From NCBI GenBank assembly GCA_013397455.1, contig VYZB01000076.1, positions 963,522 to 1,027,521 of the forward strand: a stretch of DNA of 64,000 nucleotides, read 5' to 3'. Shown here one piece after another: positions 10,862-61,604 of the stretch. Numbering within the stretch: the first letter of the stretch is position 1; every line of letters begins with the position of its first letter. Source of the stretch: Crotophaga sulcirostris. Its lineage: Eukaryota; Chordata; Aves; Cuculiformes; Crotophagidae. The notes under the pieces are model-generated. The model was given only the letters and a program-made list of their open reading frames with translations, was not told the DNA's origin and searched no databases. A program made the translations under genes and the position numbers.

Positions 10862-13567
10862 TCCATATGGTGCTGAAAATGATTTCATAGCCTCCGATAC
10901 ACCATTGCTTTCTCATCAGTTTAAAGCCATTGATTGGGCAGTAGGGGTTGAATGAAGTGTGATGGCAGATTTGTTTCTTGAACACAGAAGAGGATATTGG
11001 ATATTCAAACCGCATTTTTTGTTACCTAAATATGAGCCAAAGCTATGACTCACGGAGCTCCATGTTCCCTCTTTAGTTGGTGAAAAGATGTAGGCATAGG
11101 AAGAAGAGCAGTTGAGAGCACCTTAGCTGCTGAGATTTGGCAGCATGAATGCCTCCTGCTTTCCTCCTCTCCCTTAGTGTAGTCAATGCTGAAATAATGC
11201 TGTTAAAGAAGGCTGGTCCAAGGACTATTCACCAACAAAATCCTGTTTAAGCCTCTAAGAAAGGTATTAAATGGGATTTAAGCAATATCTTGGCCTACAC
11301 TGGCCCAGGAAGAATCTCATCCTGAGTTTAAAAAGTGTTTAAAAATATATTTTCAATAATCACATTATAGAATGGTAAGACTAAGCAATAGAAAATGCCT
11401 ATTAAGTTATTGTGTTAAATTGTTGCTGTGCGGAACTGTGCTAACAGTGGGCTTTCTACTTAGTGTTGTGCTCAGCTAATGTGCAAAATTTCTCATTCTA
11501 GGGTATTCCCATAATGAATTTTGTCCCTGCTACATTTGATTTGGGCATAGACTTGTACAGGGAGAAAAGCAGTATCTCTTTCTCCACGTGAAGAACTCTG
11601 TACAGTCTTGCTGCTTTCCAGCAATAGACAATGGTCGTGAAGAAAAGCAAGGGTTATGCATCAGGAGTTCCTATTTCACCTCGTGTTTTTGTCCAAGACT
11701 GCATGGAGAGAAATAGTAATTGGTTGAACTATTTTCTTGCCCACCCAGTTGCACAAGTGTGTTGGAAGAAGAGTCGCTGTGGGCAGTTAGTAATAAATTG
11801 AGTGTATCCCTTGCTTGGGGCTGATCAGTGGGCCCAAGGCACACATTTATTGCCTTTTTGTTCAATATTATTTTATATTTTATTTATCTATTTACTTCCA
11901 TCCCCTCATGTCATGTAATATATAGATTGTAATTATAAATTAGAATGTTTATAATTAGACTTTATTTGGAGATTTTCTGTGGAAGCTTTTGAGTTGTACA
12001 TCAGTTTCAAAATAATTTATTGACCCAGAACACTGTGTTTTGAAAATTAAAAAAAACCCTTACTTTCTGTAGCAAACTAATACTTTGTTTTAAAATGTCA
12101 ACTAGTCATGAAATAAATTACCAAGCTCTGAACATATAATTTCAGATTTGGTTTATACCAAATAAAACTTCTGTCCATGAGCCCTTCCGTTTGTTTTTCT
12201 TGCACATTATTGAGTCATGAAAACCTGTGAGGTTTTGGGTTTCCATCCCAGCTTGGCACAGGACGTTTCTTTTGAAATCTTGGATTTGCACAAGATGGCA
12301 AAAGAATTTGGTATTCAGATGCATGTATAATGACACTACACAAAAAATCAGAGCTTTTTTTCTTCTTGGGCAAGCAAGCATGTTCCAGACCAGATGTTCT
12401 TCCACTGCCTGTTCTTGTGTTTGGCTCTTGGATTTCCCTCCTTTGCCTTTGACAGCATTCTAGTGTGTATGGGGGCCTTTTTGTGCATGGGTGGGATGGG
12501 GAGAGCTGGCTGCTTGCATGGAGGGAAGGGATCATCTAGGTAGCTGCTTTTCTGAGAGCAGAGTGCTTTACTGCTGTGAAGGGGGCAGGGAGGATGGTGG
12601 TTGCCTGAATGGTGAGGTAGGCTGCAAGTGCTGGGGAAGAGGTGCAGGTTTTTCTTTGGAGTGGTGGTCCAGTATATATTTCCTTCTTGCCCTGATGAAT
12701 ATGGGATATCCTGGAGAAAAAAAGATTTTTCTCCTGTGTTACTATTTTCTCTGTATTTCTGCATGCACAGCATCTGTTCCATTCCATAGCCTGGTATATT
12801 ACTTGGAAAACTGCAAATAGTGTGATGAAATTACTTAGCTAGCTATGGCAATATGTGAAATGCCTGTCAAAAGCTATGTGACTGTATATAGGAGGAACAG
12901 GTCTGAATTCTGTGTACACTCAGAACTTGCACTGATTTTAAGGGAAACGTGGGGTGTCTGAACAAAGCAGAATCAAGCAGAGGATACATAGCTTTGAACT
13001 GGTGCAGCTTTTACACTAGAGGTGTATAAAATATTATTGATACTCGAGACTGCACATTCTCTGGTGTGTATGAAGCCAATTGAAAATGTGATACGTGCAA
13101 GATAAAACAAACAGAAGCAATCTTCTGACCCAGCACTGTACAGGTTGTTGCAAATACGAATTCAGTGTGCAACCACTTTGATCAATCCCTATAATATCCA
13201 TTTTCAAAAGAATCATACTAGTTTGTTTATTGATTTGTCACCTATGGATGAGTATTTCTGCCACAGAAATGTTTAAAATGACAGATGTTTAAAATTAGAC
13301 TTGGCAGAGCACTTTGCCTAGAGATTATTCTTGTGAAGTATTGATTCACAGCAGTGCTGTGAGCAGGATTACTGTCCAAATTGGAAAAGCCAGCCGAAGA
13401 GAGGTCTTTATCCCTTAATAACAATTAGCTCCTTTCTTAGAGGGAGACAGCTGACTGAAGCAAAAGAAAGCTGCAAAATGTCGGGCAACCAGGGAATCTA
13501 AGGCCTGTTCTTCAGGGATGTGGGCTGCAGGGGAAACGAAGGAAAAAAGAGCAAAGCATAAAGAAAG

Positions 13568-13813
13568 ATGTTTTTCTGGAACTGGAAACTGGACATGCTG
13601 GTGCTGTTTATGTTACTAATAATCAGGTTCTCTGAGGAACTGGATCGCACTCGTCTCTCTCTTCTTGGGCTTTCACCCACCAGCTGCCTGATTGATCAGA
13701 AAAACCTAACGGCGGGCGTGTTGCCTGCTGTCCATTTAGCCTTGAAACACTTACGCAAGCATTCATGGATGCTGAAGAACTATGAACTCCAGGTATCATT
13801 CCATGACACACAG
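13568..13813 (+). CDS. GABA-B receptor subunit 2-like, first coding exon
   Basis: First 82 codons of a class C G-protein-coupled receptor. After the ATG, residues 11-19 are a hydrophobic signal-peptide core (LVLFMLLII), with likely cleavage near residue 22. Residues 30-38 (LSLLGLSPT) are the first beta strand of the Venus-flytrap ligand-binding domain. Residues 46-48 (NLT) form an N-glycosylation sequon. Residues 50-60 (GVLPAVHLALK) open the first helix, and the exon ends at residues 80-82 (DTQ). GABBR2 has PLSIMGL, GVLPAVELAI and LYDTE at the same places and, as far as I recall, the same phase-0 exon boundary. The donor CAG|GTAAAT at 13,814 is near consensus; read-through meets a stop within ten codons. 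Identity to GABBR2, by my hand alignment, is only about 40% over the flytrap part, so I infer a paralogue rather than GABBR2, which is highly conserved between birds and mammals. The product would be a membrane receptor subunit; its ligand and partner are unknown. No downstream exon was found in the window. Confidence 0.75.
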
Positions 13814-16800
13814 GTAAATGGACGTAGGTGTAGAGTTGTGTAATGTTTGAGCCTCCTCTGTGATCACGCTTTTGAAGAGCATGCGACTGAATCCCTTCCT
13901 GGTGAATCCCGCTCTGCTGAAATACAGCAAATGTGGCTTCCTGGGAAAGTTTTGGCTGTTAGGTAGATGCCTGATTGTAACGAGGATCTTACAGTGCAGT
14001 CGTGCCCTGCTGGTGCTAGAAATAGGAATAAAGAGCGTGCGGATTAGGAGGAATGGCAAACTCCTATGGCTCTTCAGGTGTTTCTGAGGTACGCAGCAAG
14101 TGTTCCCCAAATCCGTGGTTTGCTGAGTTGCTTTGTTCCTCTGTACTGTCTTCTGAATCTTGCTCTTTTTGCTTTCTCTGGTGATAGCTGCCTTCTATGT
14201 CTGCTTCTGTGTGAGCAGGAGAGAGCTTTGTGCTGTGCCATCCAGGCAGGGCGTTTGCCTGTGTAAAGCCTTGCTTGCTGGTTCAGGGAAGAGTTAAGGG
14301 CTGATACAAAAGGTTAGGGCTCTGAGGAGCTAGGTAAAAAGAGCATTGAGATGGTATCTGTCAAATGTACTTTCAAATTTGAGAAAAGCTGTGTTCTTTA
14401 CTTTTGATTCTGGGACTGAGGTATCTCTTTATCTTCGGCGCAGAAATTAAATCAAGACAATTAATTTCTGAGGCCCGTCTCTTAAGCTGACCAAATGTGA
14501 CAAAATTAAGAGGAAATACTCACATTTCAGGGTGATCTGGGACTGTAACCTCTGTTCTTAAGGAGATATTCAATGATCTGAACTTCTGTCTCCCATACCG
14601 GAGACATGTTGTGGAGCAGATGCCCTCAGACTCATACACACTTAACATGCATGTGTGCATACAGGCTCCATGTACAGTAGTAAATTGCTTAATATTTTGA
14701 AGTTGCAAAGTACCACATCTGCATATAGTTGCTTATCTATAAACCTTTAAACATAGACTATGCTGTTATGATTAAATTATTAAAATTTGACATTATTACA
14801 CCAATAACAGTTGCACTGCATTATGCAATGGGGAGAAGGTATTATATGTCTTCTTTTGAAGCTCTAGAAAATTATCCAAGGGAGGAATTCTAATGTAATT
14901 TTAATTGTGCATGAGTTCATAAGCACTTGTGTAATTTTTGTAGTGCTTACACATAACAAACATGATCTCCTATGCTATAAAGGTACTTGAGGATAGGTTC
15001 TATGTTTAATGATGTAACACAAATGTGTCAACTGCATATACTCATTACGAAAAGTTCTGTTATGTAAATTTTAATACAATTCACTGTTTTATTTATTTGT
15101 TTATAAGGTCCTACTGGATATGTAATTATAGATATGCAGTCCTGAAAAATGTATGTGTGTCAGTTCATATTGTAAAAAGATGAAGATGTGCAGTAGCATT
15201 TCATTTTAAATAACCGTAAAGCGTAGAGTTTAAGTGGGCAGCAATTAAAACATACTGACATTTGCTGAGATTCAGTGCTTTTAATCCTGTTTCATTTGGT
15301 CTGAGAGGATGTAGGTGGATGTTTATTTGTTAATTGTGTTTGCATAGTTTCCAGTTCAAGCAGCAACTCCAAAATACTTTTCCCCACATAAACATTCAGT
15401 AGATTTGAATTGCAGAACTGCTGTTCAGTTGCACTGACCTCTACAATTTTAACTGAAATATTGAAGTAATCTGTGATTATCTTTTTGAAATAACTCCTGG
15501 CAAAAGACATGTCATGATAACTTGTAAGAGTTTTAACGTGTGGGCATTGAGTTTTCTGCTTTTTCTTCTTGGTTCTGAGAGTAGAGCACATAGTCTCGAG
15601 CTTTAAGTACTGATTACAGAGAAGCTACAGAGGTCCTTGGATTTAATAATTTCTCAGAGACAGTATGGATGTGAGAGAGCTGATTCTGTTTATTACTGTT
15701 ATGAGCCCAAATCTGCCATATGTGACCTTATACAACCTTTCAATTAACTTTATTTTTAAGTAGAAAATACGGCTGCTTCCCTCTTTGAATGTGAGATCAT
15801 TCAGGAGTTGGACAGATAATTGACTTTTTGGCATAGTTAACTAGGAGGGGAGAAAAGATACATCCAAAAATATTTGTGTTGCTTTTGCTGAAATAAGAAA
15901 TGGAAAGAAGTCATGTCACCCGATAAATAATGTTTCACAGGGCTTGAACAGCACTGTATCTTCATTCGTATGCACAGGGGAGCAGGGTTGCACTCTGTCC
16001 TGTGCCCCTGGGGCTTTGAATCCACTTCCTCTGCCTTCCATGAGAGAGCACTGCCCTACTGCATGATAGGGAGTTTTGGGAAGGGTTCTCAGTCTTTTGC
16101 TTTGTTACTGTTTTATTTCAGCTAATTAAGCTGTCACTAGTCCAGAATGTGAATGGTAACTATGAGGCAGCTGTCTGAGTTCTTTGTATTAAATGAAGCT
16201 GTTTCAGCAGGAACCTTTGGGAAAACTTTTTTGAGCGGAGTACTTCATAACCTGGTGACTTTGGCACTGAGCTGAGAACTGAATGCTTTCTTTGACTGAT
16301 TTCTTTCAGGTCTCTTACGGTTTAACATGTGTTTCCTAATTACTATGTTGTCAATTCCTTGGAAGTGGGAAATCCTTGAACACTCATGACGTAGCACTTC
16401 CATGTAAAAATATGCTTAAATATTCACTTAGAATGAAGATCAGGCAAATGAAAATGATCTTCTTGTTTGGTAGATGGCTACTTGTCTCTCAAATGGTATA
16501 TCTATGTCTGCAATGTTTATTCTATTATATTTTCCAGATGGACAGTGTTAGCAGGCCTGATATGTCCCTCTTTTCCAGATACCCCAAGGAAGGGTATCTT
16601 TGAGGGGGGGTCTGATGTGTTTCCTTCCTCTAACTGAAACAGGGCTGAACTTGGATTGTGTGGGGAGTTGGACAAAACATATGGGAAGGCCGAAAAAACA
16701 CAGATTTATGAATCCAACCATGGAGAAGCTTTTTAGTGTAGTAGGGGAAATTATGCCCTTGAGATTTTTACCCATGGGGGTGGGCAACCAGGTATAATTG

Positions 16801-18527: not shown

Positions 18528-18863
18528 TGTCATGGTTTAGCCCCAGCCCATCTTGATTGGCAGCTGAATGTGAGCAGTAGTGTTCACAATTCCTTCCCCT
18601 CCCAACTAGGGAAAGAGGAAAGGGAAATGTGAGAAAAAGACTGGTGGGTTGGAAACTGAAATTAAAACAGTCTTAATGCAGCAACAATAATAATAAATAA
18701 ATACTGTTAATAAGAAAATAGTAAAATATATACAAATATGGAAAATTACTCCCCCCCAATGACTATGTTGCCACAGATGCTGCAGAGCAGGCTTGGGGGA
18801 AGGTCCTGGGCTGGATTCAATGGCAGGAGGGAGCTGGACTCCAGGGATGCTCGGAGCTGAGAT

Positions 18864-18929
<66 letters not shown>

Positions 18930-19400
18930 AAGACAGACGAGCTGGGATCAGGGGGAAAAAGACAGATGAAGTCTGTATTGGATGTTGACCATTGAAGAAG
19001 AGAGTTTGACCCTCGTGATCCCTCAGTTTTATATTGAGTATGACGCATATGGGATGGAATACTCTGTTGGTCAGTTTTGGGTCACCAGTCTTGTCCACTC
19101 CTCCCTGCAGTGCTCCTTTCATTTACGATGTTCTGCCAGCTTGAGGATGGCCTTGGTTTCTGTAGGAAAAAGCAAGCCAGAGGCAACTGCAGGCTCAAAC
19201 CCTGAGCCCGGAGAGTCTACTCAGGGGCGAACTGCTGGGCTACTGCCAGCCCACCAGAACATCAAAACACTGCTTTTGAGACAAATGGAATTTGAGCAGA
19301 GGAGTTGGTTGGTGGATCAAGTGAGGGTTGACAATCCCAGAGAGGGGCTTGATGCTGTGAAGCTGGAGATGTTTCCAGGCATGTCCAGGACAGAAAGGCT
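18528..19400 (-). mobile_element. Endogenous retrovirus LTR (apparently solo), minus strand
   Basis: The left end (TGTCATGGTTTAGCCCCAGC) and the block 'gtatgacgcatatgggatgg' followed by 'aatactctgttggtcagttt' match a widespread bird LTR family. On the minus strand that family runs from its U3 through 'tgacccaaactggcca', 'ggtattccata', a TATA box and R/U5 to an end in 'aaaccatgaca'. Here the minus-strand TATA region is CAATATAAAACTG (19,024-19,036), and the R/U5 end at 18,528 reads GGGGCTAAACCATGACA. The far boundary near 19.4 kb is uncertain, and I found no target-site duplication. No gag, pol or env remnant is recognisable next to it, so I infer a solo LTR. A long G run interrupts it. Confidence 0.7.
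18865..18928. repeat. 64-base G homopolymer
   Basis: An uninterrupted run of 64 G lies inside the LTR, downstream of the TATA box in the LTR's own orientation (a C run on its sense strand). Related LTRs have a short C or G tract near this place, so this looks like an expansion of it. It may be genuine or an assembly artefact. It also creates meaningless polyproline frames on the minus strand. Confidence 0.95.
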
Positions 19401-27138: not shown

Positions 27139-28254
27139 AAGTGATGTCCTTCAGAGGTCAACCAGTGCTGGAGCTGATTTTGTGTAATGCCTGTATAATT
27201 GACCTGTATGATGGGATGGAATGCACCCTTAGCAAGTTTGTCGATGACTCCAGATTGGAGGATTGGTTGCTGACTGGAGGCAGGGCTCTACACAGAGGGA
27301 ACTCAGCGAGATGAGGTTGAAAGGAAGCAATCTTGGGCTTACCCTCTTAATTAATTATCAGGATGATGGAGCAGACTGTACCCTCAGCAAATTTGCAGAT
27401 GATACAAAACTGGGAGAAATGGCTGACATACCAGGTGAGTGTGTTAGAGGGATCTTGATAGATTGGAGAAGTAGGCAGACAGGAGCTTTACGAAGTTCAG
27501 CAAAGAGAAGTGCAAAGTCTAATCCCCAGGGAGCAATAACATCAGGCACCAGTAGATGCTGGGGCTGACCAGCTGGAAAGCAGATTTCCAAAAAAAGACC
27601 TCAGGTGTCCTGGTGGACAACAAACTGACCATGAGCCAGCAATATGCTCTTGCATTAAAGAAGGCCAACAACCTCCTGAACTGGCTGCTTTAGGAAGAGG
27701 GTTGTCAACAGGTCTACTCAGCACTGGTTAGGCCACGTCTGGAGTGCCAGTTCTAGGCATCCTGATACAACAGAGATATGGACTTACTGGAGCAAGGCCA
27801 GCCAAAGCCTACAAGGATAATGAGCATTTTTCGTATGAGGAGAGGCTGAGGGAGCTAACGTTATATAGCCTGGAGAAGAGATGAGTCAAGGGAAAACCTA
27901 TAGATGTTTATAAATGTCTGATGGGAAGGTGTAAAGAAGAAACAGCTAGATTCTTCTCATTTGTGCCGATTGAGATGACAAAAGGCATTGGGGGCATTGG
28001 GCATAAACTGAAACAGAAAATTCTATCTGTATATAAGATTTTTTTATTTTTTTTTTAGCTGTGAGAGTGGTTGAACACTTGGAAAAGGCTGCCAGGAGAT
28101 GTTGTATAGTGTCCATCCTTGGACATACTCAAAACACAACTGGACACAGTCCAGGACAATTTGGTTTTATTGTCTCTGCTTTGAGCAGGAGGGGATAGAC
28201 TAGATGATCCCCATAGGTCTCTTTCAGCCTTATCCGTTCTGTGGTTCTGTGATT
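27139..28254 (+). mobile_element. CR1 LINE, 5'-truncated, with repeated RT segment
   Basis: A sense-oriented CR1 covering the C-terminal reverse-transcriptase region and the 3' UTR. The translated block CTLSKFADDTKLGEMAD (around 27,380-27,425) carries the CR1 catalytic FADD motif. Further on come blocks like 'gtcctggtggacaacaaact', 'ccatgagccagcaatatg' and 'gaggagaggctgagggagct', and the copy ends in 'ggttctgtgattg'. Stops and frameshifts are frequent, so it is dead. Oddly, the 'gatggaatgcacccttagca' block at about 27,220 recurs as a related version at about 27,370, so the RT start is present twice in tandem. The tail also has a T-rich expansion near 28,040-28,058. Confidence 0.9.
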
Positions 28255-61085: not shown

Positions 61086-61604
61086 CTTACCTGGACTTGC
61101 TCACCTTGAGTACTGTGTACAGTTCTGGGCCCCTCAGTTTGAGAAAGATGTCAAGACACTGGAATGTGTCCAGAGATGGTGAAGGGTTTGGAGCACAAGC
61201 CCTACGAGGAGCGACTGAGAGAGCTGGGGTTGTTTAGCCTGAAAAAGAGGAGGCTCAGGGGTGACCTTATTGCTCTCTACAACTGCCTAAAAGGAGGTCA
61301 TAGTCAGGCAGGGGTTGGTCTCTTCTCTCAGGTGACCAGTGACAGAACTAGAGGACTTGGACTCAAGCTTCATCAGGGAAAGTTTAGGCTTGATATTAGG
61401 AAAAAGTTCTTCACTGAAAGGGTAGTTAGCCATTCGAATGCGCTGCCCAGTGTTGTGGTGGAGTCGCCGTCCCTGGAGGTGTTTAAGAGGAGATTGGATG
61501 AGGCACTGAGTGCCATGGTTTAGATGATGAGTTGGTGTTAGTGTTGTGTTATAGGTTGGACTCGATGATCTCAGAGGTCCTTTCCAACCTTGTGATACTG
61601 TGAT
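61086..61604 (+). mobile_element. CR1 LINE, 5'-truncated, relatively well kept
   Basis: A sense CR1 with the last part of the reverse-transcriptase frame and the full 3' UTR. It opens with a translated [14 protein letters not shown], a typical CR1 motif. After a short deletion near 61,175 shifts the frame, it continues from 61,164 for 120 codons ([20 protein letters not shown], then SDRTRG and [17 protein letters not shown]) to its stop at 61,523. The 3' end reads 'ggttggactcgatgatctca' then 'ccttgtgatactgtga'. Divergence is lower than in the other long copy, so it is a younger insertion. It lacks most of ORF2 and cannot move by itself. Confidence 0.93.

Follow-up and report, generated by a model that had tools for sequence, protein, structure and literature searches.

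Positions 13568–13813 very probably serve the ordinary GABBR2 gene as an alternative first coding exon, located in its first intron. We call it exon 1b. GABBR2 encodes a subunit of the GABA-B receptors, which mediate slow inhibition in the brain, and sequence comparison suggests that a single GABBR2 gene is probably able to give rise to two forms of the subunit. Positions given without a contig name refer to the window, the whole stretch of 64,000 nucleotides that we analysed (C1237:963522-1027521). The features described lie on its forward strand unless stated otherwise. The assembly we searched, that of Crotophaga sulcirostris, contains 1.058 Gb in 1548 contigs.

Exon 1b has 82 codons. Its frame is open from the start codon at 13568 to a phase-0 donor and ends in HDTQ. 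An in-frame stop codon (TAA, 13559–13561) precedes the ATG by six bases. Hence translation of exon 1b most likely begins at 13568, and 13568–13813 reads as a first coding exon. The N-terminus resembles a signal peptide with a hydrophobic core, LVLFMLLII (13568–13633, the end of the segment being approximate and set by eye); residues 2–22 form a helix in the model of the owl protein described below. The splice donor gtaaat (13814–13819) follows CACAG, and its partner acceptor lies outside the window, before C1237:1069041. A weak candidate for a promoter element of exon 1b is TATAAAA at 13025–13031, one of three TATA-like words within 2 kb 5' of the ATG.

The encoded peptide is of the GABA-B2 type and at the same time clearly different from the usual exon 1. 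The best PDB match of the 82 residues is human GABA-B2 (4f11, E 0.0018), which aligns with residues 29–82. In the flytrap part, exon 1b is 38% identical to exon 1 of human GABBR2 (20/53 columns) and 44% identical to the usual exon 1 of a parrot (24/54). Searched alone against Pfam, the 82 residues gave no match. The first-pass annotation of this DNA had described an exon with a signal peptide, a first strand and helix of the flytrap, a DTQ end and a phase-0 donor, a short N-terminus without the proline-rich stretch of GABBR2, and an identity of about 40% to GABBR2. All of this holds, and so does its view of a divergent GABA-B2-type exon 1, distinct from the usual one and encoding a distinct form of the protein.

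No other convincing GABBR2 exon was found in the window with tblastn and the human GABBR2 sequence; the best 40 matches were otherwise of low complexity or weak. A long simple repeat that encodes proline, on the reverse strand (18780–18950), accounts for false matches to the proline-rich N-terminus of GABBR2. Judged by their translations, open frames at 61143–61523 and 27248–27568 resemble pieces of avian CR1-type LINEs.

The remainder of the gene lies downstream of the window. A scan of 224 kb around the window found the ordinary GABBR2 exon 2 (46 codons) on the same strand; 43 of 47 aligned residues agree with those of human GABBR2. The acceptor of exon 2 is also in phase 0, at a distance of 91,706 bases downstream of the exon 1b donor. 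Joining the two exons gives a continuous frame that reads ...SFHDTQ followed directly by CDNAKGLKAFYD... (junction HDTQ/CDNAKG). We then have the whole gene from a search of the assembly with the GABBR2 protein of the owl Otus sunia, which itself begins with the 1b N-terminus. This search returned 35 matches, 18 of them on C1237, on the same strand and in order. These 18 matches extend from 977089 (exon 1b) to 1431066 (last exon), about 454 kb, and jointly cover residues 1–872. The remaining 17 lie elsewhere in the assembly, at 23–38% identity, and none of the 35 matches points to a second GABBR2-like locus with flytrap and seven-helix exons of its own. A search for the 7tm_3 domain placed four of its 21 matches on C1237, one of them above the cut-off, in agreement with a GABBR2 body at this location.

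The same N-terminus occurs in proteins of other species. Searching with residues 1–82 identified two proteins among 56 candidates, both GABBR2 proteins of 872 residues: one from the owl (90% identity) and one from the sparrow Zonotrichia albicollis (85%). Such recurrence in two bird GABBR2 proteins puts the exon far beyond chance. A search with the body of the owl protein yielded 264 GABBR2-like proteins. We read the N-termini of the 120 that were listed, and four of them carry the 1b N-terminus: the owl, the sparrow, and isoform X2 of both Anolis carolinensis and A. sagrei ordinatus. All four have an ordinary GABBR2 body. Among the same 120 listed proteins no mammalian row has the 1b N-terminus, in a database where clustering at 90% can hide isoforms. 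A search with the Anolis N-terminus returned three proteins from 39 candidates, namely the two Anolis proteins and the owl. The searches are not exhaustive: the query with residues 1–82 missed Anolis, the Anolis query missed the sparrow, and the 90% clustering conceals isoforms. As far as the entries show, the sequences in the database were predicted from genomes, possibly by one and the same method.

The usual exon 1 is carried by proteins of a parrot (a cluster of 458 members), a cowbird, a wagtail and the zebra finch. Beyond exon 1 the two kinds of protein are nearly identical. The bodies of the A. sagrei ordinatus 1b protein (P0024) and the usual A. sagrei protein (P0025), two separate records, are identical at 833 of 834 residues. 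For sparrow 1b and the usual cowbird protein the figure is 788 of 790 residues, and for owl 1b and the usual parrot protein 786 of 790 aligned residues. In the anole proteins, both first exons stand on one gene body within one species, in two separate records.

Some entries also differ within the seven-helix domain. Six bird or lizard GABBR2 entries of 872–894 residues (P0002, P0003, P0007, P0008, P0009 and P0018) lack the segment IIKDQKL...NME after KMKKK. The segment is part of the seven-helix domain, and it is missing either because an exon is skipped or because the predictions are faulty. The C. sulcirostris contig has a 7tm_3 match at C1237:1296127-1296300, where an exon with IIKDQKL...NME would be.

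Could exon 1b be the only first exon of GABBR2 that this bird has, the usual exon 1 being lost? With human and parrot exon 1 as queries, neither the window nor the 224 kb around it yielded the usual exon 1; the best match was exon 1b itself. Nor was it found in the entire assembly with the parrot query, where the best match (E 0.358) was again exon 1b. The owl and sparrow entries, moreover, show 1b alone. But the parrot cluster with its 458 members and the cowbird, wagtail and zebra finch proteins retain the usual exon, and the assembly has an N run in a CpG island just upstream. This run of 1,529 N (C1237:961993-963521) may be either a gap in the assembly or sequence that was withheld. It ends exactly at the window start, inside the only CpG island that our test detected in the 224 kb. 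The island that it cuts, with its right half at 1–750, is where the usual, GC-rich exon 1 probably lies. The usual exon 1 thus likely sits in the N run, about 13.6–15 kb upstream of 1b. We consider a loss of the usual exon very unlikely, and we infer that C. sulcirostris itself uses both first exons.

It is just as improbable that exon 1b is a relic, an old duplicate of exon 1 that transcripts no longer include and whose frame stays open by chance. Start, frame and donor are all intact. In the flytrap part, exon 1b of this bird is 93% identical to that of the owl, 91% to that of the sparrow and 73–75% to those of the anoles (40–41/55), which would not be expected over the divergence of birds and lizards without selection. 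The usual exon 1 shows a similar degree of conservation, with 79% identity between parrot and anole (42/53), near the bird–anole figure for 1b. Among birds, owl and sparrow 1b share 49 of 55 residues in the flytrap part; parrot and zebra finch share 44 of 53 in the usual exon 1. This conservation of 1b between birds and lizards, as measured on protein sequences, points to selection on the encoded protein.

The first-pass annotation had proposed a third, separate gene for a GABA-B-type subunit. The divergence from the usual exon 1 (38–44% identity) would favour this reading, but it can be dismissed almost entirely: the one complete GABBR2 locus found in the 1.06-Gb assembly is collinear with exon 1b and starts with it, the other 17 of the 35 matches lie elsewhere at 23–38% identity, and the fused proteins, from four database clusters, all continue into the body of ordinary GABBR2. 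The ligand or dimer partner of unknown identity that had been proposed along with the third gene is not needed for an exon that is part of ordinary GABBR2. A paper on the sea lamprey (PMC5143684) states that mammals, birds and amphibians have a single gene for each GABA-B subunit, which fits the fall of the third-subunit reading.

What would an alternative first exon change in the receptor? We modelled the owl 1b form from an alignment of 27 rows. The exon 1b segment is predicted to fold as the start of the GABA-B2 flytrap. Mapped from the owl model to this bird, the first strand of the upper lobe spans residues 28–36 (13649–13675), the first helix residues 47–64 (13706–13759) and the second strand residues 72–80 (13781–13807). 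A predicted N-glycosylation sequon, NLT, occupies residues 46–48 (13703–13711), seven residues N-terminal of the PAV motif. The model of the usual parrot form has the same strand–helix–strand elements. The best PDB matches of the owl model are human GABA-B receptor structures, with a TM score of 0.93 at 2.4 A to the GABA-B2 flytrap chain 4mqe_B, a score that rests mostly on the flytrap body common to both forms. Confidence in the exon part is lower for 1b: over residues 31–80 the block pLDDT values are 67, 50, 84, 78 and 79, compared to 86, 56, 85, 88 and 85 over residues 51–100 of the usual form. The mean pLDDT of the whole model is only 59.5 for 1b and 62.8 for the usual form, and we therefore claim nothing beyond the flytrap fold.

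For the alternative first exon we propose the following sequence of events. Transcription would begin close to exon 1b and not at a presumed promoter, associated with the CpG island, at the beginning of the window or slightly upstream. The usual exon 1 would be left out, and a phase-0 splice would connect HDTQ to exon 2. Such a transcript would encode a GABA-B2 subunit in which the signal peptide and, in the upper lobe, the first strand, first helix and second strand all come from exon 1b. The subunit would gain the NLT sequon, where glycosylation is predicted, before the first helix. The rest of the flytrap, the seven helices and the coiled coil would be unaltered, so that pairing with GABBR1 and G-protein coupling should persist. 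The swap would probably serve a different expression of the subunit or different surface or flytrap properties, by analogy with the starts of GABBR1a and 1b.

How old is exon 1b? To place it we compared exon-1 sequences of vertebrate GABBR2 proteins and of the GABBR2-like proteins of teleosts (teleost-b). The exon-1 tree has about 60 columns and hand-picked rows, 49 proteins plus the window. Of these proteins, 48 come from a set of 91 in which the part ahead of exon 2 has 50 residues or more; the coelacanth protein (P0037) has only 46. The other 43 proteins were left out because they were near-duplicates, had incomplete or unusual N-termini, or to limit the number of rows; they include teleost-b P0106, P0108–P0111, P0113, P0114 and P0119. 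In this tree the teleost GABBR2-like proteins (P0099, P0105, P0112, P0115–P0117, P0120 and P0121) stand beside bird and lizard 1b, and not with the exon 1 of their sister gene, teleost GABBR2, with a support of 98/96. With outgroups added, 1b and the teleost GABBR2-like proteins are grouped at 95/93. The tree from exon 2 onward places the teleost GABBR2-like proteins with teleost GABBR2 and the bowfin (99, quick method).

Two further characters, both picked after the sequences were seen, unite the same rows. An N-x-T sequon seven residues before PAV is present in 13 of 13 exon 1b and teleost-b rows, compared to 0 of 37 others. All 13 also have 30 residues between PAV and the exon end. In the other 37 rows this spacing is 29 or 28 in the 32 jawed-vertebrate rows and 29 or 30 in the five jawless rows. 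AU tests on the approximately 60 columns reject neither a grouping of all ray-finned rows (p 0.125) nor one of all amniote rows (p 0.065). When one group at a time is left out, teleost-b moves beside the echidna and 1b moves beside the hagfish rows, both on long branches and neither with its expected relatives.

Judging from these sequences, there is about an even chance that exon 1 was duplicated before the split of ray-finned and lobe-finned fishes. The two copies would then have been alternative first exons in the ancestor, as they would still be in birds and lizards, and each of the teleost duplicate genes would have kept one: GABBR2 the usual exon and the GABBR2-like gene 1b. On this view, having two extracellular forms of GABA-B2 would be an ancient, selected trait with distinct expression or flytrap behaviour, one that has so far been overlooked and may be missing from mammals.

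Among the papers listed by our literature searches, judged by title or abstract, none describes an alternative first exon of GABBR2 in birds or reptiles. Section 101 of a pharmacology guide names extracellular isoforms for GABBR1 (1a and 1b) and none for GABBR2 (PMC13242166). A conserved alternative extracellular start on GABBR2, the signalling subunit, would give birds and lizards an extra receptor type. If mammals are without 1b, work on rodents and humans would miss that receptor type. Exon 1b is also a possible explanation for the origin of the N-terminus of the teleost GABBR2-like proteins.

The closest system for comparison is the usual exon 1 of GABBR2. It shares with 1b the gene, the strand, the downstream exons, the strand–helix–strand layout and the phase-0 junction after DT[EQ]. 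Exon 1b differs from it by an identity of only 38–44% in the flytrap part, another signal peptide, the missing proline-rich stretch and the extra NLT sequon. From PAV to its end it also has one residue more than the usual rows of amniotes, and there is no CpG island at exon 1b. The teleost GABBR2-like proteins resemble 1b in their N[LIV]T sequon and the 30-residue spacing (8/8 rows) but are encoded by a separate gene, with no usual exon 1 in the entries read. More distant is the GABA-B2 chain of PDB 9jqx, titled DGABAB, which we take to be from Drosophila. It matches exon 1b with an E value of 0.0027 and shares the LANY.L...DTQ end and its length, but is otherwise a distant protein of invertebrate type. 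Finally, according to the pharmacology guide, the extracellular sequences of GABAB1a and 1b differ through alternative transcription starts, and an N-terminal sushi domain is named for GABBR1a (PMC13242166). Differing extracellular ends from alternative transcription starts are what we propose for the 1b and usual forms of GABBR2 as well. In GABBR1, however, the difference is the sushi domain of 1a, whereas in GABBR2 1b the start of the flytrap itself would be swapped.
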